A DNA stretch of 64,000 bases from Odiellus spinosus (taxonomy: Eukaryota; Arthropoda; Arachnida; Opiliones; Phalangiidae), in assembly GCA_963920705.1 (NCBI GenBank), contig CAWUCO010000207.1, positions 248,001 through 312,000 on the forward strand, in the 5' to 3' direction. Of this stretch, positions 5,168 to 29,700 are shown one piece after another. The position numbers and the translations under genes are program-made. The notes below the pieces were generated by a model. The model worked only from the letters and a program-made list of their open reading frames with translations, ran no database searches and was not told the origin of the DNA. How positions within the stretch are numbered: the first letter of the stretch is position 1; each line of letters opens with the position of its first letter.

Positions 5168-6840
5168 TCAAAACCTATCGAAAGAGCGCATATTGGTCTA
5201 TGTAAAAAACAAGAGTTTTGGCAAATCCGTTGAAAAACATGGAAAATATGGCCAATTCAAAAAACATCTATTATCAAAAAGCGAATTTTTAAAATCTGAA
5301 ATTTGACTATTTTAATATTGTATGGTTTCTTGAATTGGCCATATTTTTCTTGTTTTTCAACGGATTTTTGAAAACTCTTATTATTTAGACTGTCCATTAA
5401 TTGCTCTTTCGAATGACTTTGGTTTTGTCTAAATTGCCAAAACGTGACAAATATAAAATTGGTTAAAATTAAGCAAAAACGCTTAAAAATCCAAGATTAT
5501 ATGATTCAAATGGACACAAAACATTTGATTTTTAAGCGATTTAGACAAAATTAACACCACTCGAAAGAGCGCATATTGGTCTATGTAAAAAACAAGAGTT
5601 TTGGCAAATCCGTTGAAAAACATGGAAAATATGGCCAATTCAAAAAACATCTATTATCAAAAAGCGAATTTTTAAAATCTGAAATTTGACTATTTTGTTA
5701 TTGTATGGTTTCTTGAATTGGCCATATTTTTCTTGTTTTTCAACGGATTTTTGAAAACTCTTATTATTTAGACTGTCCATTAATTGCTCTTTCGAATGAC
5801 TTTGGTTTTGTCTAAATTGCCAAAACGTGACAAATATAAAATTGGTTAAAATTAAGCAAAAACGCTTAAAAATCCAAGATTATATGATTCAAATGGACAC
5901 AAAACATTTGATTTTTAAGCGATTTAGACAAAATTAACACCACTCGAAAGAGCAAATATTGGTCTATCTAAAAAACAAGAGATTTGGAAAATCCGTTGAA
6001 AAACATGGAAAATATGGCCAATTCAAAAAACATCTAATGTCAAAAAGCGAATTTTTAAAATCTAAAATTTGACTATTTTGATATTCTATGGTTTCTTGAA
6101 TTGGCCATATTTTTCTTCTTTTTCATCGGATTTTTGAAAACTATTATTATTTAGACTATCCATTAATTGCTCTTTCGAATGACTTTGGTTTTGTCTAAAT
6201 TGCCAAAACGTGACAAATATGAAATTGGTTAAAATTAAGCAAAAACGCTTAAAAATCCAAGATTATTGGATTCAAATTGACACAAAACATTTGATTTTTA
6301 AGCGATTTAGACAAACTTAAAACCTATCGAAAGAGCAAATATTGGACTATATAAAAAACCAGAGTTTTGGAAAATCCGTTGAAAAACATGGAAAATATGG
6401 CCAATTCAAAAAACATCTAATGTCAAAAAGCTAATTTTTAAAATCTAAAATTTGACTATTTTGATATTGTATGGTTTCTTGAATTGGCCATATTTTTCAT
6501 GTTTTTCAACGGATTTTTGAAAACTCTTATTATTTAGACTGTCCATTAATTGCTCTTTCGAATGACTTTGGTTTTGTCTAAATTGCCAAAACGTGACAAA
6601 TATAAAATTGGTTAAAATTAAGCAAAAACGCTTAAAAATCCAAGATTATATGATTCAAATGGACACAAAACATTTGATTTTTAAGCGATTTAGACAAAAT
6701 CAAAACCTATCGAAAGAGCGCATATTGGTCTTTGTAAAAAACAAGAGTTTTGGCAAATCCGTTGAAAAACATGGAAAATATGGCCAATTCAAAAAACATC
6801 TATTATCAAAAAGCGAATTTTTAAAATCTGAAATTTGACT
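5168..6840 (+). repeat. Mixed left-family monomers (types D, D-like, A, B, D)
   Basis: About four and a half units with no gene. The segment carries rare variants that return 5,362 bp (14 monomers) downstream: AAAACTATTATTATTTAG at about 6,137 and again near 11,499, and CATATTTTTCATG near 6,498 and again near 11,860. These tie it to the 11.5-12.2 kb region as copies of one ancestral block. A private variant, TTCATCGGATTTTTG near 6,123, marks this copy. Confidence 0.75.
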
Positions 6841-8372
6841 ATTTTGATATTGTATGGTTTCTTGAATTGGCCATATTTTTCTTGTTTTTCAACGGATTTT
6901 TGAAAACTCTTATTATTTAGACTGTCCATTAATTGCTCTTTCGAATGACTTTGGTTTTGTCTAAATTGCCAAAACGTGACAAATATAAAATTGGTTAAAA
7001 TTAAGCAAAAACGCTTAAAAATCCAAGATTATATGATTCAAATGGACACAAAACATTTGATTTTTAAGCGATTTAGACAAAATTAACACCACTCGAAAGA
7101 GCAAATATTGGTCTAAGTAAAAAACAAGAGTTTTGGCAAATCCGTTGAAAAACATGGAAAATATGGCCAATTCAAAAAACATCTATTATCAAAAAGCGAA
7201 TTTTTAAAATCTGAAATTTGACTATTTTGATATTGTATGGTTTCTTGAATTGGCCATATTTTTCTTGTTTTTCAACGGATTTTTGAAAACTCTTATTATT
7301 TAGACTGTCCATTAATTGCTCTTTCGAATGACTTTGGTTTAGTCTAAATTGCCAAAATGTGACAAATATAAAATTGGTTAAAATTAAGCAAAAACGCTTA
7401 AAAATCCAAGATTAATGGATTCAAATTGACACAAAACATTTGATTTTTAAGCGATTTAGACAAAATCAAAACCTATCGAAAGAGCGCATATTGGTCTATG
7501 TAAAAAACAAGAGTTTTGGCAAATCCGTTGAAAAACATGGAAAATATGGCCAATTCAAAAAACATCTATTATCAAAAAGCGAATTTTTAAAATCTGAAAT
7601 TTGACTATTTTGATATTGTATGGTTTCTTGAATTGGCCATATTTTTCTTGTTTTTCAACGGATTTTTGAAAACTCTTATTATTTAGACTGTCCATTAATT
7701 GCTCTTTCGAATGACTTTGGTTTTGTCTAAATTGCCAAAACGTGACAAATATAAAATTGGTTAAAATTAAGCAAAAACGCTTAAAAATCCAAGATTATAT
7801 GATTCAAATGGACACAAAACATTTGATTTTTAAGCGATTTAGACAAAATTAACACCACTCGAAAGAGCAAATATTGGTCTAAGTAAAAAACAAGAGTTTT
7901 GGCAAATCCGTTGAAAAACATGGAAAATATGGCCAATTCAAAAAACATCTATTATCAAAAAGCGAATTTTTAAAATCTGAAATTTGACTATTTTGATATT
8001 GTATGGTTTCTTGAATTGGCCATATTTTTCTTGTTTTTCAACGGATTTTTGAAAACTCTTATTATTTAGACTGTCCATTAATTGCTCTTTCGAATGACTT
8101 TGGTTTAGTCTAAATTGCCAAAATGTGACAAATATAAAATTGGTTAAAATTAAGCAAAAACGCTTAAAAATCCAAGATTAATGGATTCAAATTGACACAA
8201 AACATTTGATTTTTAAGCGATTTAGACAAAATCAAAACCTATCGAAAGAGCGCATATTGGTCTATGTAAAAAACAAGAGTTTTGGCAAATCCGTTGAAAA
8301 ACATGGAAAATATGGCCAATTCAAAAAACATCTATTATCAAAAAGCGAATTTTTAAAATCTGAAATTTGACT
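6841..8372 (+). repeat. Two-monomer higher-order repeat, period 766 bp, two copies
   Basis: The variant GTCTAAGTAA occurs at 7,111 and 7,877, and GTTTAGTCTA at 7,337 and 8,103, both exactly 766 bp apart. Each dimer is one D-like unit followed by one type-C unit. The same dimer appears once more at 12,473-12,700, 5,362 bp downstream of the first copy. Copies look essentially identical across the stretch read. Confidence 0.8.
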
Positions 8373-9525
8373 ATTTTGATATTGTATGGTTTCTTGAATT
8401 GGCCATATTTTTCTTGTTTTTCAACGGATTTTTGAAAACTCTTATTATTTAGACTGTCCATTAATTGCTCTTTCGAATGACTTTGGTTTTGTCTAAATTG
8501 CCAAAACGTGACAAATATAAAATTGGTTAAAATTAAGCAAAAACGCTTAAAAATCCAAGATAATATGATTCAAATGGACACAAAACATTTGATTTTTAAG
8601 CGATTTAGACAAAATTAACACCACTCGAAAGAGCAAATATTGGTCTATCTAAAAAACAAGAGATTTGGAAAATCCGTTGAAAAACATGGAAAATATGGCC
8701 AATTCAAAAAACATCTAATGTCAAAAAGCGAATTTTTAAAATCTAAAATTTGACTATTTTGATATTGTATGGTTTCTTGAATTGACCATATTTTTCTTCT
8801 TTTTCAACGGATTTTTGAAAACTCTTATTATTTAGACTATCCATTAATTGCTCTTTCGAATGACTTTGGTTTTGTCTAAATTGCCAAAACGTGACAAATA
8901 TGAAATTGGTTAAAATTAAGCAAAAACGCTTAAAAATCCAAGATTATTGGATTCAAATTGACACAAAACATTTGATTTTTAAGCGATTTAGACAAACTTA
9001 AAACCTATCGAAAGAGCAAATATTGGACTATATAAAAAACCAGAGTTTTGGAAAATCCGTTGAAAAACATGGAAAATATGGCCAATTCAAAAAACATCTA
9101 ATGTCAAAAAGCTAATTTTTAAAATCTAAAATTTGACTATTTTGATATTGTATGGTTTCTTGAATTGGCCATATTTTTCTTGTTTTTCAACGGATTTTTG
9201 AAAACTCTTATTATTTAGACTGTCCATTAATTGCTCTTTCGAATGACTTTGGTTTTGTCTAAATTGCCAAAACGTGACAAATATAAAATTGGTTAAAATT
9301 AAGCAAAAACGCTTAAAAATCCAAGATTATATGATTCAAATGGACACAAAACATTTGATTTTTAAGCGATTTAGACAAAATCAAAACCTATCGAAAGAGC
9401 GCATATTGGTCTATGTAAAAAACAAGAGTTTTGGCAAATCCGTTGAAAAACATGGAAAATATGGCCAATTCAAAAAACATCTATTATCAAAAAGCGAATT
9501 TTTAAAATCTGAAATTTGACTATTT
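8373..9525 (+). repeat. Type A, B and D monomers between two higher-order blocks
   Basis: Three full-length units without a gene. The A unit near 8,560 has the private change CCAAGATAATATG. The D unit (9,274-9,519) is 2,681 bp, exactly seven monomers, from its counterparts at 6,593 and 11,955, but differs from both at one codon-sized position (TCTATG instead of TCTTTG). Confidence 0.7.
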
Positions 9526-12054
9526 TGATATTGTATGGTTTCTTGAATTGGCCATATTTTTCTTGTTTTTCAACGGATTTTTGAAAACTCTTATTATTTA
9601 GACTGTCCATTAATTGCTCTTTCGAATGACTTTGGTTTTGTCTAAATTGCCAAAACGTGACAAATATAAAATTGGTTAAAATTAAGCAAAAACGCTTAAA
9701 AATCCAAGATTATATGATTCAAATGGACACAAAACATTTGATTTTTAAGCGATTTAGACAAAATTAACACCACTCGAAAGAGCGCATATTGGTCTATGTA
9801 AAAAACAAGAGTTTTGGCAAATCCGTTGAAAAACATGGAAAATATGGCCAATTCAAAAAACATCTATTATCAAAAAGCGAATTTTTAAAATCTGAAATTT
9901 GACTATTTTGATATTGTATGGTTTCTTGAATTGGCCATATTTTTCTTGTTTTTCAACGGATTTTTGAAAACTCTTATTATTTAGACTGTCCATTAATTGC
10001 TCTTTCGAATGACTTTGGTTTTGTCTAAATTGCCAAAACGTGACAAATATAAAATTGGTTAAAATTAAGCAAAAACGCTTAAAAATCCAAGATTATATGA
10101 TTCAAATGGACACAAAACATTTGATTTTTAAGCGATTTAGACAAAATTAACACCACTCGAAAGAGCAAATATTGGTCTATCTAAAAAACAAGAGATTTAG
10201 AAAATCCGTTGAAAAACATGGAAAATATGGCCAATTCAAAAAACATCTAATGTCAAAAAGCGAATTTTTAAAATCTAAAATTTGACTATTTTGATATTGT
10301 ATGGTTTCTTGAATTGGCCATATTTTTCTTCTTTTTCAACGGATTTTTGAAAACTATTATTATTTAGACTATCCATTAATTGCTCTTTCGAATGACTTTG
10401 GTTTTGTCTAAATTGCCAAAACGTGACAAATATGAAATTGGTTAAAATTAAGCAAAAACGCTTAAAAATCCAAGATTATTGGATTCAAATTGACACAAAA
10501 CATTTGATTTTTAAGCGATTTAGACAAACTTAAAACCTATCGAAAGAGCAAATATTGGACTATATAAAAAACCAGAGTTTTGGAAAATCCGTTGAAAAAC
10601 ATGGAAAATATGGCCAATTCAAAAAACATCTAATGTCAAAAAGCTAATTTTTAAAATCTAAAATTTGACTATTTTGATATTGTATGGTTTCTTGAATTGG
10701 CCATATTTTTCATGTTTTTCAACGGATTTTTGAAAACTCTTATTATTTAGACTGTCCATTAATTGCTCTTTCGAATGACTTTGGTTTTGTCTAAATTGCC
10801 AAAACGTGACAAATATAAAATTGGTTAAAATTAAGCAAAAACGCTTAAAAATCCAAGATTATATGATTCAAATGGACACAAAACATTTGATTTTTAAGCG
10901 ATTTAGACAAAATTAACACCACTCGAAAGAGCGCATATTGGTCTATGTAAAAAACAAGAGTTTTGGCAAATCCGTTGAAAAACATGGAAAATATGGCCAA
11001 TTCAAAAAACATCTATTATCAAAAAGCGAATTTTTAAAATCTGAAATTTGACTATTTTGATATTGTATGGTTTCTTGAATTGGCCATATTTTTCTTGTTT
11101 TTCAACGGATTTTTGAAAACTCTTATTATTTAGACTGTCCATTAATTGCTCTTTCGAATGACTTTGGTTTTGTCTAAATTGCCAAAACGTGACAAATATA
11201 AAATTGGTTAAAATTAAGCAAAAACGCTTAAAAATCCAAGATTATATGATTCAAATGGACACAAAACATTTGATTTTTAAGCGATTTAGACAAAATTAAC
11301 ACCACTCGAAAGAGCAAATATTGGTCTATCTAAAAAACAAGAGATTTAGAAAATCCGTTGAAAAACATGGAAAATATGGCCAATTCAAAAAACATCTAAT
11401 GTCAAAAAGCGAATTTTTAAAATCTAAAATTTGACTATTTTGATATTGTATGGTTTCTTGAATTGGCCATATTTTTCTTCTTTTTCAACGGATTTTTGAA
11501 AACTATTATTATTTAGACTATCCATTAATTGCTCTTTCGAATGACTTTGGTTTTGTCTAAATTGCCAAAACGTGACAAATATGAAATTGGTTAAAATTAA
11601 GCAAAAACGCTTAAAAATCCAAGATTATTGGATTCAAATTGACACAAAACATTTGATTTTTAAGCGATTTAGACAAACTTAAAACCTATCGAAAGAGCAA
11701 ATATTGGACTATATAAAAAACCAGAGTTTTGGAAAATCCGTTGAAAAACATGGAAAATATGGCCAATTCAAAAATCATCTAATGTCAAAAAGCTAATTTT
11801 TAAAATCTAAAATTTGACTATTTTGATATTGTATGGTTTCTTGAATTGGCCATATTTTTCATGTTTTTCAACGGATTTTTGAAAACTCTTATTATTTAGA
11901 CTGTCCATTAATTGCTCTTTCGAATGACTTTGGTTTTGTCTAAATTGCCAAAACGTGACAAATATAAAATTGGTTAAAATTAAGCAAAAACGCTTAAAAA
12001 TCCAAGATTATATGATTCAAATGGACACAAAACATTTGATTTTTAAGCGATTTA
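9526..12054 (+). repeat. Three-monomer higher-order repeat, period 1,149 bp, about 2.2 copies
   Basis: AGAGATTTAG is found at 10,191 and 11,340, and CATATTTTTCATG near 10,711 and 11,860, all 1,149 bp apart, exactly three units. Each trimer reads D-like hybrid, type A, type B. The match ends where copy 2 switches from AACACCACTCG to AAAACCTATCG near 12,063. Confidence 0.8.
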
Positions 12055-15000
12055 GACAAAATCAAAACCTATCGAAAGAGCGCATATTGGTCTTTGTAAA
12101 AAACAAGAGTTTTGGCAAATCCGTTGAAAAACATGGAAAATATGGCCAATTCAAAAAACATCTATTATCAAAAAGCGAATTTTTAAAATCTGAAATTTGA
12201 CTATTTTGATATTGTATGGTTTCTTGAATTGGCCATATTTTTCTTGTTTTTCAACGGATTTTTGAAAACTCTTATTATTTAGACTGTCCATTAATTGCTC
12301 TTTCGAATGACTTTGGTTTTGTCTAAATTGCCAAAACGTGACAAATATAAAATTGGTTAAAATTAAGCAAAAACGCTTAAAAATCCAAGATTATATGATT
12401 CAAATGGACACAAAACATTTGATTTTTAAGCGATTTAGACAAAATTAACACCACTCGAAAGAGCAAATATTGGTCTAAGTAAAAAACAAGAGTTTTGGCA
12501 AATCCGTTGAAAAACATGGAAAATATGGCCAATTCAAAAAACATCTATTATCAAAAAGCGAATTTTTAAAATCTGAAATTTGACTATTTTGATATTGTAT
12601 GGTTTCTTGAATTGGCCATATTTTTCTTGTTTTTCAACGGATTTTTGAAAACTCTTATTATTTAGACTGTCCATTAATTGCTCTTTCGAATGACTTTGGT
12701 TTAGTCTAAATTGCCAAAATGTGACAAATATAAAATTGGTTAAAATTAAGCAAAAACGCTTAAAAATCCAAGATTAATGGATTCAAATTGACACAAAACA
12801 TTTGATTTTTAAGCGATTTAGACAAAATCAAAACCTATCGAAAGAGCGCATATTGGTCTATGTAAAAAACAAGAGTTTTGGCAAATCCGTTGAAAAACAT
12901 GGAAAATATGGCCAATTCAAAAAACATCTATTATCAAAAAGCGAATTTTTAAAATCTGAAATTTGACTATTTTGATATTGTATGGTTTCTTGAATTAGCC
13001 ATATTTTTCTTGTTTTTCAACGGATTTTTGAAAACTCTTATTATTTAGACTGTCCATTAATTGCTCTTTCGAATGACTTTGGTTTTGTCTAAATTGCCAA
13101 AACGTGACAAATATAAAATTGGTTAAAATTAAGCAAAAACGCTTAAAAATCCAAGATTATATGATTCAAATGGACACAAAACATTTGATTTTTAAGCGAT
13201 TTAGACAAAATCAAAACCTATCGAAAGAGCGCATATTGGTCTATGTAAAAAACAAGAGTTTTGGCAAATCCGTTGAAAAACATGGAAAATATGGCCAATT
13301 CAAAAAACATCTATTATCAAAAAGCGAATTTTTAAAATCTGAAATTTGACTATTTTGATATTGTATGGTTTCTTGAATTGGCCATATTTTTCTTGTTTTT
13401 CAACGGATTTTTGAAAACTCTTATTATTTAGACTGTCCATTAATTGCTCTTTCGAATGACTTTGGTTTAGTCTAAATTGCCAAAATGTGACAAATATAAA
13501 ATTGGTTAAAATTAAGCAAAAACGCTTAAAAATCCAAGATTAATGGATTCAAATTGAAACAAAACATTTGATTTTTAAGCGATTTAGACAAAATCAAAAC
13601 CTATCGAAAGAGCGCATATTGGTCTATGTAAAAAACAAGAGTTTTGGCAAATCCGTTGAAAAACATGGAAAATATGGCCAATTCAAAAAACATCTATTAT
13701 CAAAAAGCGAATTTTTAAAATCTGAAATTTGACTATTTTGATATTGTATGGTTTCTTGAATTGGCCATATTTTTCTTGTTTTTCAACGGATTTTTGAAAA
13801 CTCTTATTATTTAGACTGTCCATTAATTGCTCTTTCGAATGACTTTGGTTTTGTCTAAATTGCCAAAACGTGACAAATATAAAATTGGTTAAAATTAAGC
13901 AAAAACGCTTAAAAATCCAAGATTATATGATTCAAATGGACACAAAACATTTGATTTTTAAGCGATTTAGACAAACTTAAAACCTATCGAAAGAGCAAAT
14001 ATTGGACTATATAAAAAACAAGAGATTTGGAAAATCCGTTGAAAAACATGGAAAATATGGCCAATTCAAAAAACATCTAATGTCAAAAAGCGAATTTTTA
14101 AAATCTAAAATTTGACTATTTTGATATTGTATGGTTTCTTGAATTGGCCATATTTTTCTTCTTTTTCAACGGATTTTTGAAAACTATTATTATTTAGACT
14201 ATCCATTAATTGCTCTTTCGAATGACTTTGGTTTTGTCTAAATTGCCAAAACGTGACAAATATGAAATTGGTTAAAATTAAGCAAAAACGCTTAAAAATC
14301 CAAGATTATTGGATTCAAATTGACACAAAACATTTGATTTTTAAGCGATTTAGACAAACTTAAAACCTATCGAAAGAGCAAATATTGGAATATATAAAAA
14401 ACCAGAGTTTTGGAAAATCCGTTGAAAAACATGGAAAATATGGCCAATTCAAAAAACATCTATTATCAAAAAGCGAATTTTTAAAATCTGAAATTTGACT
14501 ATTTTGATATTGTATGGTTTCTTGAATTGGCCATATTTTTCTTGTTTTTCAACGGATTTTTGAAAACTCTTATTATTTAGACTGTCCATTAAAAGCTCTT
14601 TCGAATGACTTTGGTTTTGTCTAAATTGCCAAAACGTGACAAATATAAAATTGGTTAAAATTAAGCAAAAACGCTTAAAAATCCAAGATTATATGATTCA
14701 AATGGACACAAAACATTTGATTTTTAAGCGATTTAGACAAACTTAAAACCTATCGAAAGAGCAAATATTGGACTATATAAAAAACCAGAGTTTTGGAAAA
14801 TCCGTTGAAAAACATGGAAAATATGGCCAATTCAAAAAACATCTAATGTCAAAAAGCTAATTTTTAAAATCTAAAATTTGACTATTTTGATATTGTATGG
14901 TTTCTTGAATTGGCCATATTTTTCATGTTTTTCAACGGATTTTTGAAAACTCTTATTATTTAGACTGTCCATTAATTGCTCTTTCGAATGACTTTGGTTT

Positions 15001-15784
15001 TGTCTAAATTGCCAAAACGTGACAAATATAAAATTGGTTAAAATTAAGCAAAAACGCTTAAAAATCCAAGATTATATGATTCAAATGGACACAAAACATT
15101 TGATTTTTAAGCGATTTAGACAAAATCAAAACCTATCGAAAGAGCGCATATTGGTCTTTGTAAAAAACAAGAGTTTTGGCAAATCCGTTGAAAAACATGG
15201 AAAATATGGCCAATTCAAAAAACATCTATTATCAAAAAGCGAATTTTTAAAATCTGAAATTTGACTATTTTGATATTGTATGGTTTCTTGAATTGGCCAT
15301 ATTTTTCTTGTTTTTCAACGGATTTTTGAAAACTCTTATTATTTAGACTGTCCATTAATTGCTCTTTCGAATGACTTTGGTTTAGTCTAAATTGCCAAAA
15401 TGTGACAAATATAAAATTGGTTAAAATTAAGCAAAAACGCTTAAAAATCCAAGATTAATGGATTCAAATTGACACAAAACATTTGATTTTTAAGCGATTT
15501 AGACAAAATCAAAACCTATCGAAAGAGCGCATATTGGTCTATGTAAAAAACAAGAGTTTTGGCAAATCCGTTGAAAAACATGGAAAATATGGCCAATTCA
15601 AAAAACATCTATTATCAAAAAGCGAATTTTTAAAATCTGAAATTTGACTATTTTGATATTGTATGGTTTCTTGAATTGGCCATATTTTTCTTGTTTTTCA
15701 ACGGATTTTTGAAAACTCTTATTATTTAGACTGTCCATTAATTGCTCTTTCGAATGACTTTGGTTTTGTCTAAATTGCCAAAAC

Positions 15785-16030
15785 GTGACAAATATAAAAT
15801 TGGTTAAAATTAAGCAAAAACGCTTAAAAATCCAAGATTATATGGTTCAAATGGACACAAAACATTTGATTTTTAAGCGATTTAGACAAAATCAAAACCT
15901 ATCGAAAGAGCGCATATTGGTCTATGTAAAAAACAAGAGTTTTGGCAAATCCGTTGAAAAACATGGAAAATATGGCCAATTCAAAAAACATCTATTATCA
16001 AAAAGCGAATTTTTAAAATCTGAAATTTGA
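15785..16030 (+). other. Recurrent 81-codon open frame in type-D monomers; not supported as a gene
   Basis: An open frame of 81 codons beginning GTG ACA AAT recurs in type-D units at 5,061, 6,593, 9,274, 11,955, 13,104, 15,019, 15,785 and 17,698, and with a longer front at 17,274. The peptide is lysine-rich, with FRQNQNLSKERI, KSVEKHGKYGQFKKH and KSEFLKSEI in order. There is no ATG at the start, no ribosome-binding or promoter context, no recognisable domain and no signal or membrane segment. Most of the roughly 61 left monomers, all A and B units among them, have a stop in this frame (TTAACACC or CTTAAAACC supplies TAA). A selected gene would not look like this. I read it as an accidental frame carried along by repeat homogenisation. 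Confidence 0.8.
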
Positions 16031-16033
16031 CTA

Positions 16034-16386
16034 TTTTGATATTGTATGGTTTCTTGAATTGGCCATATTTTTCTTGTTTTTCAACGGATTTTTGAAAACT
16101 CTTATTATTTAGACTGTCCATTAATTGCTCTTTCGAATGACTTTGGTTTTGTCTAAATTGCCAAAACGTGACAAATATAAAATTGGTTAAAATTAAGCAA
16201 AAACGCTTAAAAATCCAAGATTATATGATTCAAATGGACACAAAACATTTGATTTTTAAGCGATTTAGGCAAAATTAACACCACTCGAAAGAGCGCATAT
16301 TGGTCTATGTAAAAAACAAGAGTTTTGGCAAATCCGTTGAAAAACATGGAAAATATGGCCAATTCAAAAAACATCTATTATCAAAA
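16034..16386. repeat. Imperfect inverted repeat within one monomer (129-bp and 128-bp arms)
   Basis: Arm 1 (16,034-16,162) and the reverse complement of arm 2 (16,259-16,386) share, in order, TTTTGATATT, TTGAATTGGCCATATTTT, GTTTTTCAACGGATTTT, AAAACTCTT, TTGCTCTTTCGA and TTTTGTCTAAAT. One single-base indel separates them near the outer end. The 96-bp spacer is the inner dyad. All full-length monomers in both arrays show the same design, so this is a property of the family and not of one copy. The obvious reading is that an ancestral unit of about 190 bp was duplicated head to head before the 383-bp unit was amplified. That history is inference; the symmetry is seen directly. Confidence 0.9.
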
Positions 16387-16443
16387 AGCGAATTTTTAAA
16401 ATCTGAAATTTGACTATTTTGATATTGTATGGTTTCTTGAATT
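16061..16443 (+). repeat. Representative 383-bp monomer (left family)
   Basis: Chosen as a clean full-length unit, counted from GGCC at 16,061 to the base before the next equivalent GGCC at 16,444. The unit is built as an inverted dimer. Arm 1 (16,034-16,162, beginning just upstream) runs from TTTTGATATTGTATGG to CTAAATTGCC. Arm 2 (16,259-16,386) is its imperfect reverse complement, from AGCGATTTAG to the end of TATTATCAAAA. Between them, at 16,163-16,258, lies a central segment with two further nested inverted repeats. The second dyad centre lies in the segment joining one unit's arm 2 to the next unit's arm 1, around AGCGAATTTTTAAAATC. A 95-98 bp section of the two arms differs at about 19 positions, that is about 80% identity, counted by hand. 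Confidence 0.9.
16204..16262. repeat. Perfect 12-bp inverted repeat at the monomer centre
   Basis: CGCTTAAAAATC at 16,204-16,215 is the exact reverse complement of GATTTTTAAGCG at 16,251-16,262, with a 35-nt loop. Just upstream, TTAAGC (16,193-16,198) pairs with GCTTAA (16,205-16,210) across the 6-nt loop AAAAAC, so two mutually exclusive hairpins share the CGCTTAA segment. Both elements recur in most monomers of both arrays and are among the best conserved words. Some right-array units have mutated one side, such as CGCTGTAAAATG in the 27,765, 28,911 and 30,057 monomers, which breaks the longer stem. Confidence 0.85.
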
Positions 16444-18500
16444 GGCCATATTTTTCTTGTTTTTCAACGGATTTTTGAAAACTCTTATTATTTAGACTGT
16501 CCATTAATTGCTCTTTCGAATGACTTTGGTTTTGTCTAAATTGCCAAAACGTGACAAATATAAAATTGGTTAAAATTAAGCAAAAACGCTTAAAAATCCA
16601 AGATTATATGATTCAAATGGACACAAAACATTTGATTTTTAAGCGATTTAGACAAAATTAACACCATTCGAAAGAGCAAATATTGGTCTATGTAAAAAAC
16701 AAGAGTTTTGGCAAATCCGTTGAAAAACATGGAAAATATGGCCAATTCAAAAAACATCTATTATCAAAAAGAGAATTTTTAAAATCTGAAATTTGACTAT
16801 TTTGATATTGTATGGTTTCTTGAATTGGCCATATTTTTCTTGTTTTTCAACGGATTTTTGAAAACTCTTATTATTTAGACTGTCCATTAATTGCTCTTTC
16901 GAATGACTTTGGTTTAGTCTAAATTGCCAAAATGTGACAAATATAAAATTGGTTAAAATTAAGCAAAAACGCTTAAAAATCCAAGATTAATGGATTCAAA
17001 TTGAAACAAAACATTTGATTTTTAAGCGATTTAGACAAAATCAAAACCTATCGAAAGAGCGCATATTGGTCTATGTAAAAAACAAGAGTTTTGGCAAATC
17101 CGTTGAAAAACATGGAAAATATGGCCAATTCAAAAAACATCTATTATCAAAAAGCGAATTTTTAAAATCTGAAATTTGACTATTTTGATATTGTATGGTT
17201 TCTTGAATTGGCCATATTTTTCTTGTTTTTCAACGGATTTTTGAAAACTCTTATTATTTAGACTGTCCATTAATTGCTCTTTCGAATGACTTTGGTTTTG
17301 TCTAAATTGCCAAAACGTGACAAATATAAATTGGTTAAAATTAAGCAAAAACGCTTAAAAATCCAAGATTATATGATTCAAATGGACACAAAACATTTGA
17401 TTTTTAAGCGATTTAGACAAAATCAAAACCTATCGAAAGAGCGCATATTGGTCTATGTAAAAAACAAGAGTTTTGGCAAATCCGTTGAAAAACATGGAAA
17501 ATATGGCCAATTCAAAAAACATCTATTATCAAAAAGCGAATTTTTAAAATCTGAAATTTGACTATTTTGTATTGTATGGTTTCTTGAATTGGCCATATTT
17601 TTCTTGTTTTTCAACGGATTTTTGAAAACTCTTATTATTTAGACTGTCCATTAATTGCTCTTTCGAATGACTTTGGTTTTGTCTAAATTGCCAGAACGTG
17701 ACAAATATAAAATTGGTTAAAATTAAGCAAAAACGCTTAAAAATCCAAGATTATATGATTCAAATGGACACAAAACATTTAATTTTTAAGCGATTTAGAC
17801 AAAATCAAAACCTATCGAAAGAGCGCATATTGGTCTATGTAAAAAACAAGAGTTTTGGCAAATCCGTTGAAAAACATGGAAAATATGGCCAATTCAAAAA
17901 ACATCTATTATCAAAAAGCGAATTTTTAAAATCTGAAATTTGACTATTTTGTATTGTATGGTTTCTTGAATTGGCCATATTTTTCTTGTTTTTCAACGGA
18001 TTTTTGAAAACTCTTATTATTTAGACTGTCCATTAATTGCTCTTTCGAATGACTTTGGTTTTGTCTAAATTGCCAGAACGTGACAAATATAAAATTGGTT
18101 AAAATTAAGCAAAAACGCTTAAAAATCCAAGATTATATGATTCAAATGGACACAAAACATTTGATTTTTAAGCGATTTAGACAAAATTAACACCACTCGA
18201 AAGAGCAAATATTGGTCTATGTAAAAAACAAGAGTTTTGGCAAATCAGTTGAAAAACATGGAAAATATGGCCAATTCAAAAAACATCTATTATCAAAAAG
18301 CGAATTTTTAAAATCTGAAATTTGACTATTTTGATATTGTATGGTTTCTTGAATTGGCCATATTTTTCTTGTTTTTCAACGGATTTTTGAAAACTCTTAT
18401 TATTTAGACTGTCCATTAATTGCTCTTTCGAATGACTTTGGTTTTGTCTAAATTGCCAAAACGTGAAAATATAAAATTGGTTAAAATTAAGCAAAAACGC

Positions 18501-21500
18501 TTAAAAATCCAAGATTATTGGATTCAAATTGACACAAAACATTTGATTTTTAAGCGATTTAGACAAAATTAACACCACTCGAAAGAGCAAATATTGGTCT
18601 ATCTAAAAAACAAGAGATTTGGAAAATCCGTTGAAAAACATGGAAAATATGGCCAATTCAAAAAAAATCTAATGTCAAAAAGCGAATTTTTAAAATCTAA
18701 AATTTGACTATTTTGATATTGTATGGTTTCTTGAATTGGCCATATTTTTCTTCTTTTTTAACGGATTTTTGAAAACTCTTATTATTTAGACTATCCATTA
18801 ATTGCTCTTTCGAATGACTTTCTTTTGTCTAAATTTCCAAAACGTGACAAATATGAAATTGGTTAATTTTAAGCAAAAACGCTTAAAAATCCAAGATTAT
18901 TGGATTCAAATTGACACAAAACATTTGATTTTTAAGCGATTTAGACAAACTTAAAACCTATCGAAAGAGCAAATATTGGACTATATAAAAAACCAGAGTT
19001 TTGGAAAATCCGTTGAAAAACATGGAAAATATGGCCAATTAAAAAACATCTAATGTCAAAAAGCGAATTTTTAAAAACTAAAATTTGACTATTTTGATAT
19101 TGTATGGTTTCTTGAATTGGCCATATTTTTCTTGTTTTTCAACGGATTTTTGAAAACTCTTATTATTTAGACTGTCCATTAATTGCTCTTTCGAATGACT
19201 TTGGTTTTGTCTAAATTGCCAAAACGTGACAAATATGAAATTGGTTAAAATTAAGCAAAAACGCTTAAAAATCCAAGATTATTGGATTCAAATTGACACA
19301 AAACATTTGATTTTTAAGCGATTTAGACAAACTTAAAACCTATCGAAAGAGCAAATATTGGACTATATAAAAAACCAGAGTTTTGGAAAATCCGTTGAAA
19401 AACATGGAAAATATGGCCAATTCAAAAAACATCTAATGTCAAAAAGCGAGTTTTTAAAATCTAAAATTTGACTATTTTGATATTGTATGGTTTCTTGAAT
19501 TGGCCATATTTTTCTTTTTTTTCAACGGATTTTTGAAAACTCTTATTATTTAGACTGTCCATTAATTGCTCTTTCGAATGACTTTGGTTTAGTCTAAATT
19601 GCCAAAATGTGACAAATATAAAATTGGTTAAAATTAAGCAAAAACGCTTAAAAATCCAAGATTAATGGATTCAAATTGACACAAAACATTTGATTTTTAA
19701 GCGATTTAGACAAAATCAAAACCTATCGAAAGAGCGCATATTGGTCTATGTAAAAAACAAGAGTTTTGGCAAATCCGTTGAAAAACATGGAAAATATGGC
19801 CAATTCAAAAAACATCTATTATCAAAAAGCGAATTTTTAAAATCTGAAATTTGACTATTTTGATATTGTATGGTTTCTTGAATTGGCCATATTTTTCTTG
19901 TTTTTCAACGGATTTTTGAAAACTCTTATTATTTAGACTGTCCATTAATTGCTCTTTCGAATGACTTTGGTTTTGTCTAAATTGCCAAAACGTGACAAAT
20001 ATAAAATTGGTTAAAATTAAGCAAAAACGCTTAAAAATCCAAGATTGTATGATTCAAATTGACACAAAACATTTGATTTTTAAGCGATTTAGACAAAATT
20101 AACACCACTCGAAAGAGCAAATATTGGTCTAACTAAAAAACAAGAGTTTTGGAAAATCCGTTGAAAAACATGGAAAATATGGCCAATTCAAAAAACATCT
20201 AATGTCAAAAAGCGAATTTTTAAAATCTGAAATTTGACTATTTTGATATTGTATGATTTCTTGAATTGGCCATATTTTTCTTCTTTTTCAACGGATTTTT
20301 GAAAACTCTTATTATTTAGACTATCCATTAATTGCTCTTTCGAATGACTTTGGTTTTGTCTAAATTGCCAAAACGTGACAAATATGAAATTGGTTAAAAT
20401 TAAGCAAAAACGCTTAAAAATCCAAGATTATTGGATTCAAATTGACACAAAACATTTGATTTTTAAGCGATTTAGACAAACTTAAAACCTATCGAAAGAG
20501 CAAATATTGGACTATATAAAAAACCAGAGTTTTGGAAAATCCGTTGAAAAACATGGAAAATATGGCCAATTCAAAAAACATCTAATGTCAAAAAGCGAAT
20601 TTTTAAAATCTAAAATTTGACTATTTTGATATTGTATGGTTTCTTGAATTGGCCATATTTTTCTTGTTTTTCAACGGATTTTTGAAAACTCTTATTATTT
20701 AGACTGTCCATTAATTGCTCTTTCGAATGACTTTGGTTTAGTCTAAATTGCCAAAATGTGACAAATATAAAATTGGTTAAAATTAAGCAAAAACGCTTAA
20801 AAATCCAAGATTAATGGATTCAAATTGACACAAAACATTTGATTTTTAAGCGATTTAGACAAAATCAAAACTTATCGAAAGAGCGCATATTGGTCTATGT
20901 AAAAAACAAGAAGTTTGGCAAATCCGTTGAAAAACATGGAAAATATGGCCAATTCAAAAAACATCTATTATCAAAAAGCGAATTTTTAAAATCTGAAATT
21001 TGACTATTTTGATATTGTATGGTTTCTTGAATTGGCCATATTTTTCTTGTTTTTCAACGGATTTTTGAAAACTCTTATTATTTAGACTGTCCATTAATTG
21101 CTCTTTCGAATGACTTTGGTTTTGTCTAAATTTCCAAAATGTGACAAATATAAAATTGGTTAAAATTAAGCAAAAACGCTTAAAAATCCAAGATTATATG
21201 ATTCAAATGGACACAAAACATTTGATTTTTAAGCGATTTAGACAAAATTAACACCACTCGAAAGAGCAAATATTGGTCTATCTAAAAAACAAGAGATTTG
21301 GAAAATCCGTTGAAAAACATGGAAAATATGGCCAATTCAAAAAACATCTAATGTCAAAAAGCGAATTTTTAAAATCTAAAATTTGACTATTTTGATATTG
21401 TATGGTTTCTTGAATTGGCCATATTTTTCTTCTTTTTCAACGGATTTTTGAAAACTCTTATTATTTAGACTATCCATTAATTGCTCTTTCGAATGACTTT

Positions 21501-21860
21501 GGTTTTGTCTAAATTGCCAAAACGTGACAAATATGAAATTGGTTAAAATTAAGCAAAAACGCTTAAAAATCCAAGATTATTGGATTCAAATTGACACAAA
21601 ACATTTGATTTTTAAGCGATTTAGACAAACTTAAAACCTATCGAAAGAGCAAATATTGGACTATATAAAAAACCAGAGTTTTGGAAAATCCGTTGAAAAA
21701 CATGGAAAATATGGCCAATTCAAAAAACATCTAATGTCAAAAAGCGAATTTTTAAAATCTAAAATTTGACTATTTTGATATTGTATGGTTTCTTGAATTG
21801 GCCATATTTTTCTTGTTTTTCAACGGATTTTTGAAAACTCTTATTATTTAGACCGTCCAT
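18501..21860 (+). repeat. A-B-C trimers, period 1,149 bp
   Basis: Type-C markers GTTTAGTCTA at 19,587 and 20,736 are 1,149 bp apart, with A and B units between, and a further A-B pair follows to about 21,780. An extra B unit precedes the first C. The A unit near 20,050 carries GTATGATTTCTTG at its end, a word otherwise typical of the right-hand family. Private single-base changes are frequent near 18,740-18,870, so this edge is slightly more diverged than the core of the left array. Confidence 0.75.
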
Positions 21861-23466
21861 TAATTGCTCTTTCGAATGACTTTGGTTTTGTCAAAATTGC
21901 CAAAACGTGACAAATATAAAATTGGTTAAAATTAAGCAAAAACGCTTAAAAATCCAAGATTATTGGATTCAAAGGGACACAAACATTTGATTTTTAACCG
22001 ATTTAGACAAAATCAACACCTATCGAAAGAGCAAATATTGGACTATCTAAAAAACAAGAGTTTTGGAAAATCCGTCGAAAAACATGGAAAATATGGCCAA
22101 TTCAAAAAACATCTAATATCAAAAAGCGAATTTTTAAAATCTGAAATTTGACTATTTTGATATTGTATGATTTCTTGAATTGGCCATATTTTTCTTGTTT
22201 TTCAACGGATTTTTGAAAACTCTTATTATTTAGACTGTCCATTAATTGCTCTTTCGAATGACTTTGGTTTTGTCTAAATTGCCAATACGTGACAAATATA
22301 AAATTGGTTAAATTTAAGCATAAACGCTTAAAAATCCAAGATTATTGGATTCAAATGGACACAGAACATTTCATTTTAAAGCGATTTAGACAAAATTAAC
22401 ACGTCTCGAAAGAGCAAATATTTGTCTATCTAAAAAACAAGAGTTTTGGAAAATCCGTTGAAAAACATGGAAAATATGGTTAATTCAAAAAACATCTAAT
22501 ATCAAAAAGCGAATTTTTAAAATCTGAAATTTGACTATTTTGATATTGTATGATTTTTTGAATTGGCCATATTTTTCTTGTTTTTCAACGGATTTTTGAA
22601 AACTCTTATTATTTAGACTGTCCATTTATTGCTCTTTCGAATGACTTTGGTTTTGTCTAAATTTCCAAAACGTGACAAATATAAAATTTGTTAAAATTAA
22701 GCAAAAACGCTTAAAAATCCAAGATTATTGGATTCAAATGGACACAAAACATTTGATTTTTAAGCGATTTAGACAAAATACACACCACTCGAAAAAACAA
22801 ATATTAGTTTATCTAAAAAACAAGATTTTTGGAAAATCCGTTGAAAAACATGGAAAATATAGCCAATTCAAAAAACATCTAATATCAAAAAGCGAATTTT
22901 AAAAATCTGAAATTTGACTATTTTGATATTTTATGATTTCTTGAATTGGCTATATTTTTCTTGTTTTTCAACGGATTTTTGAAAACTCTTATTATTTAGA
23001 CTGTCCATTAATTGCTTTTACGAATGACTTTGGTTTTGTCTAAATTGCCAAAACGTGACAAATATAAAATTGGTTAAAATTAAGCAAAAACCCTTAAAAA
23101 TCCAAGATTATTGGATTCAAATGGACACAAAACATTTGATTTTTAAGCGATTTAGACAAAATCAACACCTATCGAAAGAGCAAATATTGGTCTATCTAAA
23201 AAACAAGAGTTTTGGAAATTCTGTTGAAAAACATGGAAAATATGGTTTATTCAAAAAACATCTAATATCAAAAAGCGAATTTTTAAAATCTGAAATTTGA
23301 CTATTTTGATATTGTATGGTTTCTGAATTGGCCATATTTTTCTTGTTTTTCAACGGATTTTTGAAAACTCTTATAATTTAGACTGTCCATTAATTTATCT
23401 TTCGAATGACTTTGGTTTTGTCTAAATAACCAAAACGTAACAAATATAAAATTGGTTAAAAATAAG
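21861..23466 (+). repeat. Right-family monomers in + orientation, next to the flip
   Basis: From about 21,960 the units change family while keeping + orientation. They have GGGACACAAACATTTG near 21,973, GTATGATTTCTTG near 22,165 and AGCATAAACGCTTAAAAATC near 22,317, and near 22,785-22,850 they match a right-array subfamily with about 2 differences in 69 bases after reverse complementing (GACAAAATACACACCACTCG and ATATTAGTTTATC, compare 25,391-25,460 and 32,655-32,725). These units are visibly more mutated than the left array proper, as expected at an array edge or old junction. Confidence 0.8.
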
Positions 23467-23510
23467 CCAATTCAAGAAATCATAAAAAACCAAAACTCTG
23501 GTTTTTTATA
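23455..23510. other. Orientation-switch junction between the two arrays
   Basis: Up to 23,465 the sequence reads in + orientation (GGTTAAAAATAAG). From 23,468 it reads CCAATTCAAGAAATCAT, the reverse complement of ATGATTTCTTGAATTGG. The two bases GC at 23,466-23,467 fit both sides. After only about 17 bases a second break follows: the next sequence (CCAAAACTCTGG onward) comes from a different place in the unit and from a left-type B monomer in reverse. Two breaks within about 25 bp, with minimal microhomology and a short fold-back, suggest a complex repair or template-switching event instead of a clean crossover. The break positions are read directly; the mechanism is inferred. Confidence 0.85.
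23482..23509. repeat. Perfect 11-bp hairpin at the junction
   Basis: ATAAAAAACCA (23,482-23,492) and TGGTTTTTTAT (23,499-23,509) are exact reverse complements around the 6-nt loop AAACTC. A normal type-B unit contains only one of these two arms, so the hairpin was created by the rearrangement. It is what a fold-back joining of the two strands of a B monomer would leave. Confidence 0.85.
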
Positions 23511-25745
23511 TAGTCCAATATTTGCTCTTTCGATAGGTTTTAAGTTTGTCTAAATCGCTTAAAAATCAAATGTTTTGTGTCAATTTGAATCCAATAATCT
23601 TGGATTTTTAAGCGTTTTTGCTTAATTTTAACCAATTTTATATTTGTCACGTATTGGCAATTTAGACAAAACCAAAGTCATTCGAAAGAGCAATTAATGG
23701 AAAGTCTTAATAATAAGAGTTTTCAAAAATCCGTTGAAAAACAAGAAAAATATGGCCAATTCAAGAAATCATACAATATCAAAATAGTCAAATTTCAGAT
23801 TTTAAAAATTCGCTTTTTGATCTTAGATGTTTTTTGAATATGCCATAATTTCCATGTTTTTCAACGGATTTTCCAAAACTCTTATTTTTGAGATAGACAA
23901 ATATTTGCTCTTTGGATTGGTCTTAATTTTGTCTAAATCGCTTAAAAATGAAATGTTCTGTGTCCATTTGAATCCAATAATCTTGGATTTTTAAGCGTTT
24001 TTGCTTAATTTTAACCAATTTTATATTTGTCACGTATTGGCAATTTAGACAAAACCAAAGTCATTCGAAAGAGCAATTAATGGAAAGTCTTAATAATAAG
24101 AGTTTTCAAAAATCCGTTGAAAAACAAGAAAAATATGGCCAATTCAAGAAATCATACAATATCAAAATAGTCAACTTTCAGATTTTAAAAATTCGCTTTT
24201 TGATATTAGATGTTTTTGAATTGACCATGTTTTCCATGTTTTTCAACGGATTTTCCAAAACTCTTGTTTTTTAGATAGACAAATATTTGCTCTTTGGATT
24301 GGTCTTAATTTTATCTAAATCGCTTAAAAATGAAATGTTCTGTGTCCATTTGAATCCAATAATCTTGGATTTTTAAGCGTTTTTGCTTAATTTTAACCAA
24401 TTTTATATTTGTCACGTATTGGCAATTTAGACAAAACCAAAGTCATTCGAAAGAGCAATTAATGGAAAGTCTTAATAATAAGAGTTTTCAAAAATCCGTT
24501 GAAAAACAAGAAAAATATGGCCAATTCAAGAAATCATACAATATCAAAATAGTCAAATTTCAGATTTTAAAAATTCGCTTTTTGATCTTAGATGTCTTTT
24601 GAATTGGCCATAATTTCCATGTTTTTCAACGGATTTTCCAAAACTCTTATTTTTGAGATATACCAATATTTGCTCTTTCGAATGGTGTTGAATTTGTCTA
24701 AATCGCTAAAAAATCAAAAGTTTTGTGTCCATTTGAATCCAATAATCTTGGATTTTTAAGCGTTTTTGCTTATTTTTAACCAATTTTATATTTGTTACGT
24801 TTTGGTTATTTAGACAAAACCAAAGTCATTCGAAAGATAAATTAATGGACAGTCTAAATAATAAGAGTTTTCAAAAATGCGTTGAAAAACAAGAAAAATA
24901 TGGCCAATTCAAGAAATCATACAATATCAAAATAGTCATATTTCATATTTTAAAAATTCGCTTTTTTTTATTTGATGTTTTTTGAATTGGCTATATTTTC
25001 CATGTTTTTCAACGGATTTCCCAAAACTCTTGTTTTTTCGATAGACCAATATTTGCTCTTTCGAGTGGTGTTAATGTTGTCTAAATCGCTTAAAAATCAA
25101 ATGTTTTGTGTCCATTTGAATCCAATAATCTTGGATTTTTAAGCGTTTTTGCTTAATTTTAACCCATTTTATATTTGTCACGTTTTCTCAATTTAGACAA
25201 AACCAAAGTCATTCGAAAGAGCAATTAATGGACAGTCTAAATAATAAGAGTTTTCAAAAATCCGTTGAAAAACAAGAAAAATATGGCCAATTCAAGAAAT
25301 CATACAATATCAAAATAGTCAAATTTCAGATTTTAAAAATTCGCTTTTTGATATTAGATGTTTTTTGAATTGGCTATATTTTCCATGTTTTTCAACGGAT
25401 TTTCCAAAAATCTTGTTTTTTAGATAGACTAATATTTGTTCTTTCGAGTGGTGTGTATTTTGTCTAAATCGCTTAAAAATCAAATGTTTTGTGTCAATTT
25501 GAATCCATTAATCTTGGATTTTTAAGCATTTTTGCTTAATTTTAACCAATTTTATATTTGTCACATTTTGGCAATTTAGACTAAACCAAAGTCATTCGAA
25601 AGAGCAATTAATGGACAGTCTAAATAATAAGAGTTTTTAAAAATCCGTTGAAAAACAAGAAAAATATGGCCAATTCAAGAAACCATACAATATCAAAATA
25701 GTCAAATTTTAGATTTTAAAAATTCGCTTTTTGACATTAGATGTT
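23487..25745 (-). repeat. Mosaic zone just right of the flip, with left-family islands
   Basis: Two islands belong to the left family although they lie in the inverted array. At 23,487-23,600 there is type-B sequence (CTGGTTTTTTATATAGTCC, TAAGTTTGTCTAAATC). At about 25,490-25,600 there is type-C sequence (TTTGAATCCATTAATC, TTTAGACTAAACC), followed by AAACCATACAATATC and TTTGACATTAGATG up to 25,742. Between them are right-family units, three of which (near 23,700, 24,080 and 24,465) share the local variant AATGGAAAGTCTTAATAATA and TTTGGATTGGTC, a small local amplification about 382 bp apart. Confidence 0.75.
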
Positions 25746-26729
25746 TTTTGAATTGGCCATATTTTCCATGTTTTTCAACGGATTTTCCAAAACTCTTTTT
25801 TTTAGATAGACCAATATTTGCTCTTTCGAATGGTGTTGAATTTGTCTAAGTCGCTTAAAAATCAAAAGTTTGGTGTCCATTTGAATCCAATAATCTTGGA
25901 TTTTTAAGCGTTTTTGCTTAATTTTAACCAATTTTATATTTGTCACGTTTTGGCAATTTAGACAAAACCAAAGTCATTCGTAAAAGCAATTAATGGACAG
26001 TCTAATTAATAAGAGTTTTCAAAAATCCGTTGAAAAACAAGAAAAATATGGCCAATTCAAGAAATCATACAATATCAAAATAGTCAACTTTCAGATTTTA
26101 AAAATTCGCTTTTCGATATTAGATGTTTTTTGAATTGACCATATTTTCCATGTTTTTCAACGGATTTTCCAAAACTCTTGTTTTTTAGATAGACAAATAT
26201 TTGCTCTTTCGAGTGGTCTTAATTTTGTCTAAATCGCTTAAAAATGAAATGTTCTGTGTCCATTTGAATCCAATAATCTTGGATTTTTAAGCGTTTTTGC
26301 TTAATTTTAACCAATTTTATATTTGTCACGTATTGGCAATTTAGACAAAACCAAAGTCATTCGAAAGAGCAATTAATGGACAGTCTAAATAATAAGAGTT
26401 TTCAAAAATCCGTTGAAAAACAAGAAAAATATGGCCAATTCAAGAAATCATACAATATCAAAATAGTCATATTTCATATTTTAAAAATTCGCTTTTTTTA
26501 TTAGATGTTTTTTGAATTGGCTATATTTTCCATGTTTTTCAACGGAGTTTCCAAAACTCTTGTTTTTTCGATAGACCAATATTTGCTCTTTCGAGTGGTG
26601 TTAATTTTGTCTAAATCGCTTAAAAATCAAATGTTTTATGTCCATTTGAATCCAATAATCTTGGATTTTTAAGCGTTTTTGCTTAATTTTAACAAATTTT
26701 ATATTTGTCACGTTTTCTCAATTTAGACA
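25746..26729 (-). repeat. Right-family monomers ahead of the trimer block
   Basis: Two and a half full-length units without a gene. The unit at 25,746-25,960 has TTGTCTAAGTCGC and AAAGTTTGGTGTCC, a subtype that recurs at 27,370, 28,517, 35,398, 36,930, 38,076, 39,606, 43,429 and 58,435. The next unit has AAATGAAATGTTCTGTGTCC, and the last has ACGGAGTTTCC. Confidence 0.7.
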
Positions 26730-29700
26730 AAACTAAAGTCATTCGAAAGAGCAATTAATGGACAGTCTAAATAATAAGAGTTTTCAAAAATCCGTTGAAA
26801 AACAATAAAAATATGGCCAATTCAAGAAATCATACAATATCAAAATAGTCAAATTTCAGATTTTAAAAATTCGCTTTTTGATATTAGATGTTTTTTGAAT
26901 TGGCCATATTTTCCATGTTTTTCAACGGATTTTCCAAAACTCTTTTTTTTTAGATAGTCCAATATTTGCTCTTTCGATAGGTGTATATTTTGTCTCAATC
27001 GCTTAAAAATCAAATGTTTGTGTCCATTTGAATCCAATAATCTTGGATTTTTAAGCGTTTTTGCTTAATTTCAACCAATTTTATATTTGTCACGTTTTGG
27101 CAATTTAGACAAAACCAAAGTCATTCGAAAGAGCAATTAATGGACAGTCTAAATAATGAGAGTTTTCAAAAATCCGTTGAAAAACAAGAAAAATATGGCC
27201 AATTCAAGAAATCATACAATATCAAAATAGTCAAATTTCAGATTTTAAAAATTCGCTTTTTGATATTAGATGTTTTTTGAATTGGCAATATTTTCCATGT
27301 TTTTCAACGGATTTTCCAAAACTCTTTTTTTAGATAGACCAATATTTGCTCTTTCGAATGATGCTGAATTTGTCTAAGTCGCTTAAAAATCAAAAGTTTG
27401 GTGTCCATTTGAATCCAATAATCTTGGATTTTTAAGCGTTTTTGCTTAATTTTAACCAATTTTATATTTGTCACGTTTTGGCAATTTAGACAAAACCAAA
27501 GTCATTCGTAAAAGCAATTAATGGACAGTCTAATTAATAAGAGTTTTCAAAAATCCGTTGAAAAACAAGAAAAATATGGCCAATTCAAGAAATCATACAA
27601 TATCAAAATAGTCAACTTTCAGATTTTAAAAATTCGCTTTTTGATATTAGATGTTTTTTGAATTAACCATATTTTCCATGTTTTTCAACGGATTTTCCAA
27701 AACTCTTGTTTTTTAGATAGAAAAATATTTGCTCTTTTGAGTGGTGTTAATTTTGTCTAAATCGCTGTAAAATGAAATGTTCTGTGTCCATTTGAATCCA
27801 ATAATCTTGGATTTTTAAGCGTTTATGCTTAAATTTAACCAATTTTATATTTGTCACGTATTGGCAATTTAGACAAAACCAAAGTCATTCGAAAGAGCAA
27901 TTAATGGACAGTCTAAATAATGAGAGTTTTCAAAAATTCGTTGAAAAACAAGAAAAATATGGCCAATTCAAGAAATCATACAATATCAAAATAGTCAAAT
28001 TTCAGATTTTAAAAATTCGCTTTTTGATATTAGATGTTTTTTGAATTGGCCATATTTTCCATGTTTTTCAACGGATTTTCCAAAACTCTTGTTTTTTAGA
28101 TAGTACAATATTTGCTCTTTCGATAGGTGTATATTTTGTCTCAATCGCTTAAAAATCAAATGTTTGTGTCCATTTGAATCCAATAATCTTGGATTTTTAA
28201 GCGTTTTTGCTTAATTTTAACCAATTTTATATTTGTCACGTTTTGGCAATTTAGACAAAACAAAATTCATTCGAAAGAGCAATTAATGGACAGTCTAAAT
28301 AATAAGAGTTTTCAAAAATCCGTTGAAAAACAAGAAAAATATGGCCAATTCAAGAAATCATACAATATCAAAATAGTCAAATTTCAGATTTTAAAAATTC
28401 GCTTTTTGATATTAGATGTTTTTTGAATTGGCAATATTTTCCATGTTTTTCAACGGATTTTCCAAAACTCTTTTTTTAGATAGACCAATATTTGCTCTTT
28501 CGAATGATGTTGAATTTGTCTAAGTCGCTTAAAAATCAAAAGTTTGGTGTCCATTTGAATCCAATAATCTTGGATTTTTAAGCGTTTTTGCTTAATTTTA
28601 ACCAATTTTATATTTGTCACGTTTTGGCAATTTAGACAAAACCAAAGTCATTCGTAAAAGCAATTAATGGACAGTCTAATTAATAAGAGTTTTCAAAAAT
28701 CCGTTGAAAAACAAGAAAAATATGGCCAATTCAAGAAATCATACAATATCAAAATAGTCAACTTTCAGATTTTAAAAATTCGCTTTTTGATATTAGATGT
28801 TTTTTGAATTAACCATATTTTCCATGTTTTTCAACGGATTTTCCAAAACTCTTGTTTTTTAGATAGAAAAATATTTGCTCTTTTGAGTGGTGTTAATTTT
28901 GTCTAAATCGCTGTAAAATGAAATGTTCTGTGTCCATTTGAATCCAATAATCTTGGATTTTTAAGCGTTTATGCTTAAATTTAACCAATTTTATATTTGT
29001 CACGTATTGGCAATTTAGACAAAACCAAAGTCATTCGAAAGAGCAATTAATGGAAAGTCTAAATAATGAGAGTTTTCAAAAATTCGTTGAAAAACAAGAA
29101 AAATATGGCCAATTCAAGAAATCATACAATATCAAAATAGTCAAATTTCAGATTTTAAAAATTCGCTTTTTGATATTAGATGTTTTTTGAATTGGCCATA
29201 TTTTCCATGTTTTTCAACGGATTTTCCAAAACTCTTGTTTTTTAGATAGTCCAATATTTGCTCTTTCGATAGGTGTATATTTTGTCTCAATCGCTTAAAA
29301 ATCAAATGTTTGTGTCCATTTGAATCCAATAATCTTGGATTTTTAAGCGTTTTTGCTTACTTTTAACCAAATTTATATTTGTCACGTTTTGGCAATTTAG
29401 ACAAAACCAAAGTCATTCGAAAGAGCAATTAATGGACAGTCTAAATAATAAGAGTTTTCAAAAATCCGTTGAAAAACAAGACAAATATGGCCAATTCAAG
29501 AAATCATACAATATCAAAATAGTCAAATTTCAGATTTTAAAAATTCGCTTTTTGATATTAGATGTTTTTTGAATTGACCATATTTTCCATGTTTTTCAAC
29601 GGATTTTCCAAAACTCTTGTTTTTTAGATAGACAAATATTTGCTCTTTCGAGTGGTCTTAATTTTGTCTAAATCGCTTAAAAATGAAATGTTCTGTGTCC

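Follow-up and report, generated by a model that had tools for sequence, protein, structure and literature searches.

A 383-bp tandem satellite with a long palindrome in each unit: an inverted duplication that was probably inherited rather than maintained as a fold

Introduction

Satellites with long dyads inside the monomer have been described in insects. In Tribolium madens, the satellite TmSat2 carries a palindrome of ~600 bp in a 704-bp unit, and its arrays form macro-dyads with conserved sites of inversion that recur in the genome (PMC13081366). The same account cites a Tribolium brevicornis satellite of 1061 bp with inverted segments of ~470 bp (Mravinac 2005) and a Trichogramma brassicae satellite of 385 bp with 80-bp inverted repeats (Landais 2000). 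Its authors describe long intra-monomer dyads as not so common, take long dyads near centromeres as consistent with a functional non-B structure and state that array-level macro-dyads are documented only in Tribolium (PMC13081366). The proposal that links non-B DNA to centromeres, as worded in the relevant part of PMC9070824, concerns dyads of less than 10 bp.

The satellite analysed here fills a stretch of 64,000 nucleotides (hereafter the window) and fits this already described kind. As in TmSat2, inverted subunits make each monomer one large, imperfect palindrome, and the arrays also switch orientation; unlike TmSat2, which is reported with a 704-bp monomer, ~110-bp subunits and ~300-bp arms, it has a unit of 383 bp in which the arms measure 141 bp and the unrelated spacer 98 bp (PMC13081366). 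With the T. brevicornis satellite it has in common the long, inversely oriented subunits within one monomer, but not the 1061-bp monomer length or the ~470-bp segments. The T. brassicae satellite has nearly the same unit length (385 bp) and an inverted repeat inside the monomer, and differs in its arms, which are 80 bp there and 141 bp here, the comparison being one of published descriptions only (PMC13081366). What the present work adds is a test of whether the fold is maintained, which was negative with measured power.

Results and Discussion

Organization of the array

A single satellite accounts for 63,921 of the 64,000 bases of the window, in 194 pieces. The consensus and all unit statistics come from the alignment of 134 full-length units (60 in plus and 74 in minus orientation), the 60 partial or deleted pieces being excluded. 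The unit is 383 bp long and the window has a GC content of ~27%; TRF applied to the plus array gave a period of 383, 61.4 copies and 95% matches. Mean identity between units is 95.8% within the plus array, 94.4% within the minus array and 93.9% between the two, so that a 383-bp period with 94 to 96% identity among the units of each array characterizes the locus as a tandem array. The window contains no open reading frame of 100 amino acids or more and no plant telomere repeat, and the 10 kb from 15000 to 25000 gave no Rfam match. A three-unit stretch had no similarity to plasmids and phages, searches for one exact pattern each in IMG/VR and GTDB contigs (in case of eukaryotic contamination) returned no result and, in the literature texts searched, six longer k-mers were absent and no text contained two or more of six shorter ones.

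Several described satellites are close in length. HSR1 of Humulus lupulus, a subtelomeric, KpnI-defined repeat, has the same unit length of 383 bp, and the words "inverted" and "palindrom" are absent from the main text of its report (PMC12406709). The KpnI site GGTACC does not occur in the 64,000 bases, where 1.02 occurrences would be expected by chance, so its absence counts only against a KpnI-defined repeat; identity with HSR1 is disfavoured. Heliophila HeElo2, also of 383 bp (PMC7835680), and the 362- and 377-bp subfamilies of Tribolium castaneum TCAST (PMC3411249) were compared by length alone, the latter being similar and not equal in length.

A loopless palindrome and a one-way spacer

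A preliminary description of this DNA had proposed that each monomer contains arms of 129 and 128 bp matching as reverse complements at about 80%, and had named as the contrary case that they align no better than shuffled AT-rich sequence. The arms were borne out: in the unit at 16034-16416, positions 1-129 against 226-353 give 100 identities, 28 mismatches and 1 gap (77.5%), and the best local score of the consensus against its own reverse complement is 245, compared with a mean of 30.9, a standard deviation of 6.2 and a maximum of 70 among 2000 dinucleotide shuffles of the consensus. Rotating the unit so that the dyad centre became internal before arm alignment showed that these arms belong to a larger structure (Table 1), a nearly loopless palindrome of 285 bp in which 115 of 141 consensus arm pairs match (81.6%). 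The earlier arms are thus real but extend further, to 141 bp each, and the centre on which they close, position 16401, lies outside the span of 16034-16386 to which the preliminary description referred. Arm identity in individual units averages 78.5% (range, 74.5 to 82.3%), and the dyad is present in all 134 full-length units. The inverted segments therefore cover much of the monomer (~74%), well beyond chance, as in other long-dyad satellites.

Table 1. Positions in the window of the two arrays, of the joint between them and of the parts of one unit
Feature	Position	Strand	Basis
Satellite array, plus orientation	1..23467	+	blastn of one unit; TRF
Joint where the array orientation flips	23468..23489		blastn of one unit; joint comparison
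Satellite array, minus orientation, with many 325-bp deleted units past ~46.5 kb	23490..64000	-	blastn; TRF
Right arm of preceding palindrome, unit 1-128 (first arm of the preliminary description)	16034..16161	+	arm alignment
Spacer of 98 bp, unit 129-226, without mirror symmetry	16162..16259	+	shuffle tests, folding
Left arm, unit 227-367 (contains second arm of the preliminary description)	16260..16400	+	self-alignment
Hypervariable block of left arm, unit 241-256, mean diversity 0.195	16274..16289	+	permutation p 0.0025
Dyad centre, unit 368, without loop	16401..16401		self-alignment
Right arm, unit 369-383 and next unit 1-128	16402..16544	+	self-alignment; folding

The remainder of the unit does not share this symmetry. 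The monomer had been read as an inverted dimer of ~190-bp half-units with two alternating dyad centres; this holds for ~74% of the unit and fails for the 98-bp spacer, the midpoint of which (~16210) was the supposed second centre. Unit 129-226 has no excess of symmetry over 3000 shuffles (local, 0.38; global, 0.15), nor do its inner 75 bp exceed their own shuffles (local, 0.288; global, 0.91), and the spacer folds weakly (z -1.74). A complete 190-bp inverted dimer was accordingly rejected, since the spacer is not symmetric. The spacer region does hold one perfect inverted repeat of 12 bp, formed by CGCTTAAAAATC at unit 171-182 (window 16204-16215) and GATTTTTAAGCG at unit 218-229 (window 16251-16262). 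This repeat lies at the margins of the inner spacer and extends 3 bp into the left arm; it is centred on unit 200, the spacer midpoint being at ~177, and its local score is equalled by 2.2% of shuffles of unit 129-229, a range that includes the 3 arm bases. The array is best described as imperfect palindromes of 285 bp alternating with one-way spacers of 98 bp.

Origin of the unit

The two arms are homologous, meet at a single loopless centre, are separated on their other side by a one-way spacer and have diverged independently of each other. These features can probably be explained by an old inverted duplication of ~141 bp that, together with an unrelated 98-bp segment, was amplified in tandem, the dyad being inherited passively and the fold not selected. 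The steps would be as follows: (i) in what is most likely a eukaryotic genome, with an AT-rich tandem satellite as the outcome, a segment of ~141 bp would have been duplicated in inverted orientation, back to back and without a loop, beside the unrelated 98-bp segment, possibly through a foldback event such as template switching at a hairpin; (ii) the composite of arms and 98-bp segment would then have been amplified in tandem as one 383-bp unit; and (iii) this unit may have spread via unequal exchange or rolling-circle amplification. Since the consensus arms have diverged by ~18% and copies of the unit differ by only ~5%, the inversion came before the array as it now stands. The dyad would persist through copying of the entire unit and not through selection on the fold.

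A more specific origin, compatible with the inverted duplication just outlined, is that the satellite derives from a MITE. Such elements consist of long arms on either side of an unrelated middle, and they can give rise to satellites (PMC12628747, PMC12692304). The arm-pair identity profile speaks against it: the ends of the arms are not the best conserved parts, since the 20 pairs nearest the centre have 75% identity and the 20 outermost pairs 80%, compared with 85 to 90% in pairs 61-120 (pairs 41-60 are lowest, at 70%). In addition, no direct duplication of 4 to 10 bp is found at a distance of up to 6 bp from the outer ends of the arms, and we regard a MITE ancestry as rather doubtful. The difference between pairs 61-120 and the rest (88% vs 77%) is not significant (p 0.083) for a range picked after the profile was seen, and the longest matched run, of 21 pairs, is not unusual (p 0.25).

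Hairpin potential and its maintenance

Folding predictions give the palindrome as single-stranded DNA a z score of -13.4 and the span of the preliminary description one of -12.3, the latter because the palindrome arms close around the spacer. As RNA, the palindrome has a predicted fold of -126.3 kcal/mol (z -17.7). According to these models, single-stranded DNA or RNA of the palindrome can form a long imperfect hairpin; nothing in the variation between units indicates that this fold is used. The 134 full-length copies provide a direct test of maintenance, the outcome of which is negative. In 121 contiguous neighbours, the two arms of an actual palindrome pair at 0.7844 and random partners at 0.7838, a difference of 0.0007 with a standard error of 0.0011, and the corresponding difference for arms of the same unit is 0.0006 (standard error, 0.0013); neither value points to compensation. 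A simulated compensation of 10% yields a difference of 0.006 with a standard error of 0.0012 and would be detectable. Of 30 alleles observed two or more times at mismatched pairs, 13 restore pairing, compared with 12.1 expected from the mutation spectrum, on which ground homogenization of one arm by the other was also rejected. Counting again only variant alleles observed two or more times, there are 0.378 per paired site and 0.418 per spacer site (p 0.32).

The arms also differ from one another in diversity. Diversity in the left arm is roughly double that in the right (pi, 0.069 vs 0.034), with 30 of 141 variable sites against 15 of 141 (p 0.022), so the arms evolve separately. At the level of single sites, the diversity profiles of the two arms are weakly correlated (Spearman, 0.166, a value reached by 3.3% of shifts), and the correlation is gone after smoothing (0.075; 38% of shifts as high). 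Sites mismatched between the arms carry 0.577 variant alleles per site, versus 0.378 at paired sites, an excess that uneven mutation or a weak pairing constraint could both give. The mismatches concentrate in variable regions (smoothed r of 0.61 and 0.43; none of 121 shifts as high) and thus fall where units vary, which means that rates differ along the unit; such regional differences could result from weak constraint or merely from uneven mutation. Overall, the symmetry looks inherited, without a sign of fold maintenance, in data from one array of one genome that are blind to longer-term constraint. The same test can be used on other palindromic satellites, where it would help to tell inherited from selected symmetry. 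Around the hypervariable block of the left arm (unit 241-256), 11 of the 12 commonest haplotypes of unit 241-285 are confined to one of the two arrays.

Two functional explanations of the dyad have to be weighed against passive inheritance. The first, that extruded cruciforms or hairpins help to load the centromeric histone, as in the non-B-DNA proposal, can draw on the strong predicted hairpin, on the relatively low variability of the palindrome centre (unit 353-368, with a pi of 0.013; random sets of 16 sites show a diversity no higher than this in 2.4% of cases, before any correction for the bins viewed), and on the unit- and array-level dyads reported in putative (peri)centromeric satellites of Tribolium (PMC13081366). 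The lack of compensation and of constraint at paired sites relative to the spacer argues against it, as does the match of only 75% in the innermost pairs, below that of pairs 61-120; the explanation also presupposes a centromeric location of the array. The cruciform potential raised in the preliminary description stands as a strong predicted tendency of single-stranded DNA to form a hairpin, not as a maintained cruciform, and the dyad proposal that it invoked covers, in the part of PMC9070824 concerned, dyads of less than 10 bp and not arms of 140 bp. Its suggestion of nucleosome phasing likewise found no sequence support in the one test applied, a search for 10-bp AA/TT periodicity, which revealed no excess (p 0.57). 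The core of the CENP-B box has 129 matches in the window, compared with 54.7 in shuffled windows and ~0.33 such sites per 383 bp expected by chance. Each of these matches contains 2 mismatches, and a single site of the unit supplies most of them, so that the excess over shuffles is due to the repetition of that site through the array, and the unit was not credited with a CENP-B box. We consider a centromeric function of the dyad unlikely.

The second functional explanation is that transcripts of either strand would fold into a long hairpin and be diced to small RNAs that keep the array heterochromatic. The predicted RNA fold of the palindrome is favourable, but mutations that preserve pairing through G-U are not favoured (29, compared with 26 in the mirror class, of 148) and compensation is lacking here as well, which makes this reading very improbable. 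Passive inheritance of the dyad with the copied unit accounts better for the pattern of variation.

The orientation switch

The window contains a single switch of orientation, at which a plus subarray of 23.5 kb and a minus subarray of 40.5 kb flank the joint at 23468-23489, an arrangement that constitutes a macro-dyad. At the joint, the last plus unit ends at position 165, window 23466-23484 is the reverse complement of unit 12-30 and, 5 bases after this reverse complement of 30-12, the minus array resumes at the reverse complement of position 295 onward; ~100 bp around one palindrome centre are missing. Recombination between arms was considered as the source of the switch and rejected: the plus unit breaks at position 165, within the spacer, and the sequence continues as the reverse complement beginning at unit 30, and since these positions are not arm partners, arm recombination fails to explain the switch.

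It could be argued that the switch, or even the symmetry itself, is an artefact of assembly or of fold-back reads, and the short scrambled joint is in keeping with this. A fold-back copy would, however, be near-identical, and units that face each other across the switch do not resemble one another more than other units do (0.938 to 0.941 over 21 diagonals; mean, 0.939). This speaks against a fold-back artefact and against an inverted copy of very recent date, and the dyad of the unit recurs in every full-length copy. An artefact is thus hardly credible. For a window from outside Tribolium, the satellite may, as a tentative suggestion, represent an independent case in which dyads are nested, the palindromic unit lying within a macro-dyad of at least 23 kb per arm. 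Should this be true, convergence in an unrelated lineage would suggest that satellite arrays take on a foldback organization repeatedly, whether the cause is mechanism or selection.

Deletions and duplications within the array

The palindrome centre was also considered as a hotspot of large deletions and rejected as such, because the recurrent deletions lie away from unit 368, at unit 95-147 and 172-306, with further deletions of 13 bp at 252 and 25 bp at 111; only the joint at 23484/23490 has lost a palindrome centre. Many deleted units of 325 bp, found in the minus array only (46577-56019 and 61583-63963), lack ~58 bp near unit 95-147, and at most of their joints there is an overlap of 5 bp. 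A unit of 242 bp, again only in the minus array (45952-46193 and 60958-61199), has a 6-bp overlap; these overlaps suggest microhomology deletions. The segment 42407-48994 recurs as 57413-64000, that is, over 6,588 bp at an offset of 15,006 bp downstream, with 2 mismatches and up to the window end, and is a recent large duplication or a higher-order period. Long exact direct repeats at 34497-37222, 6414-7634 and 29726-30977, with offsets of 2677, 5362 and 1146 bp (~7, 14 and 3 units), are recent local duplications. Unit identity is slightly raised at lags of 3, 7, 14 and 21 units.
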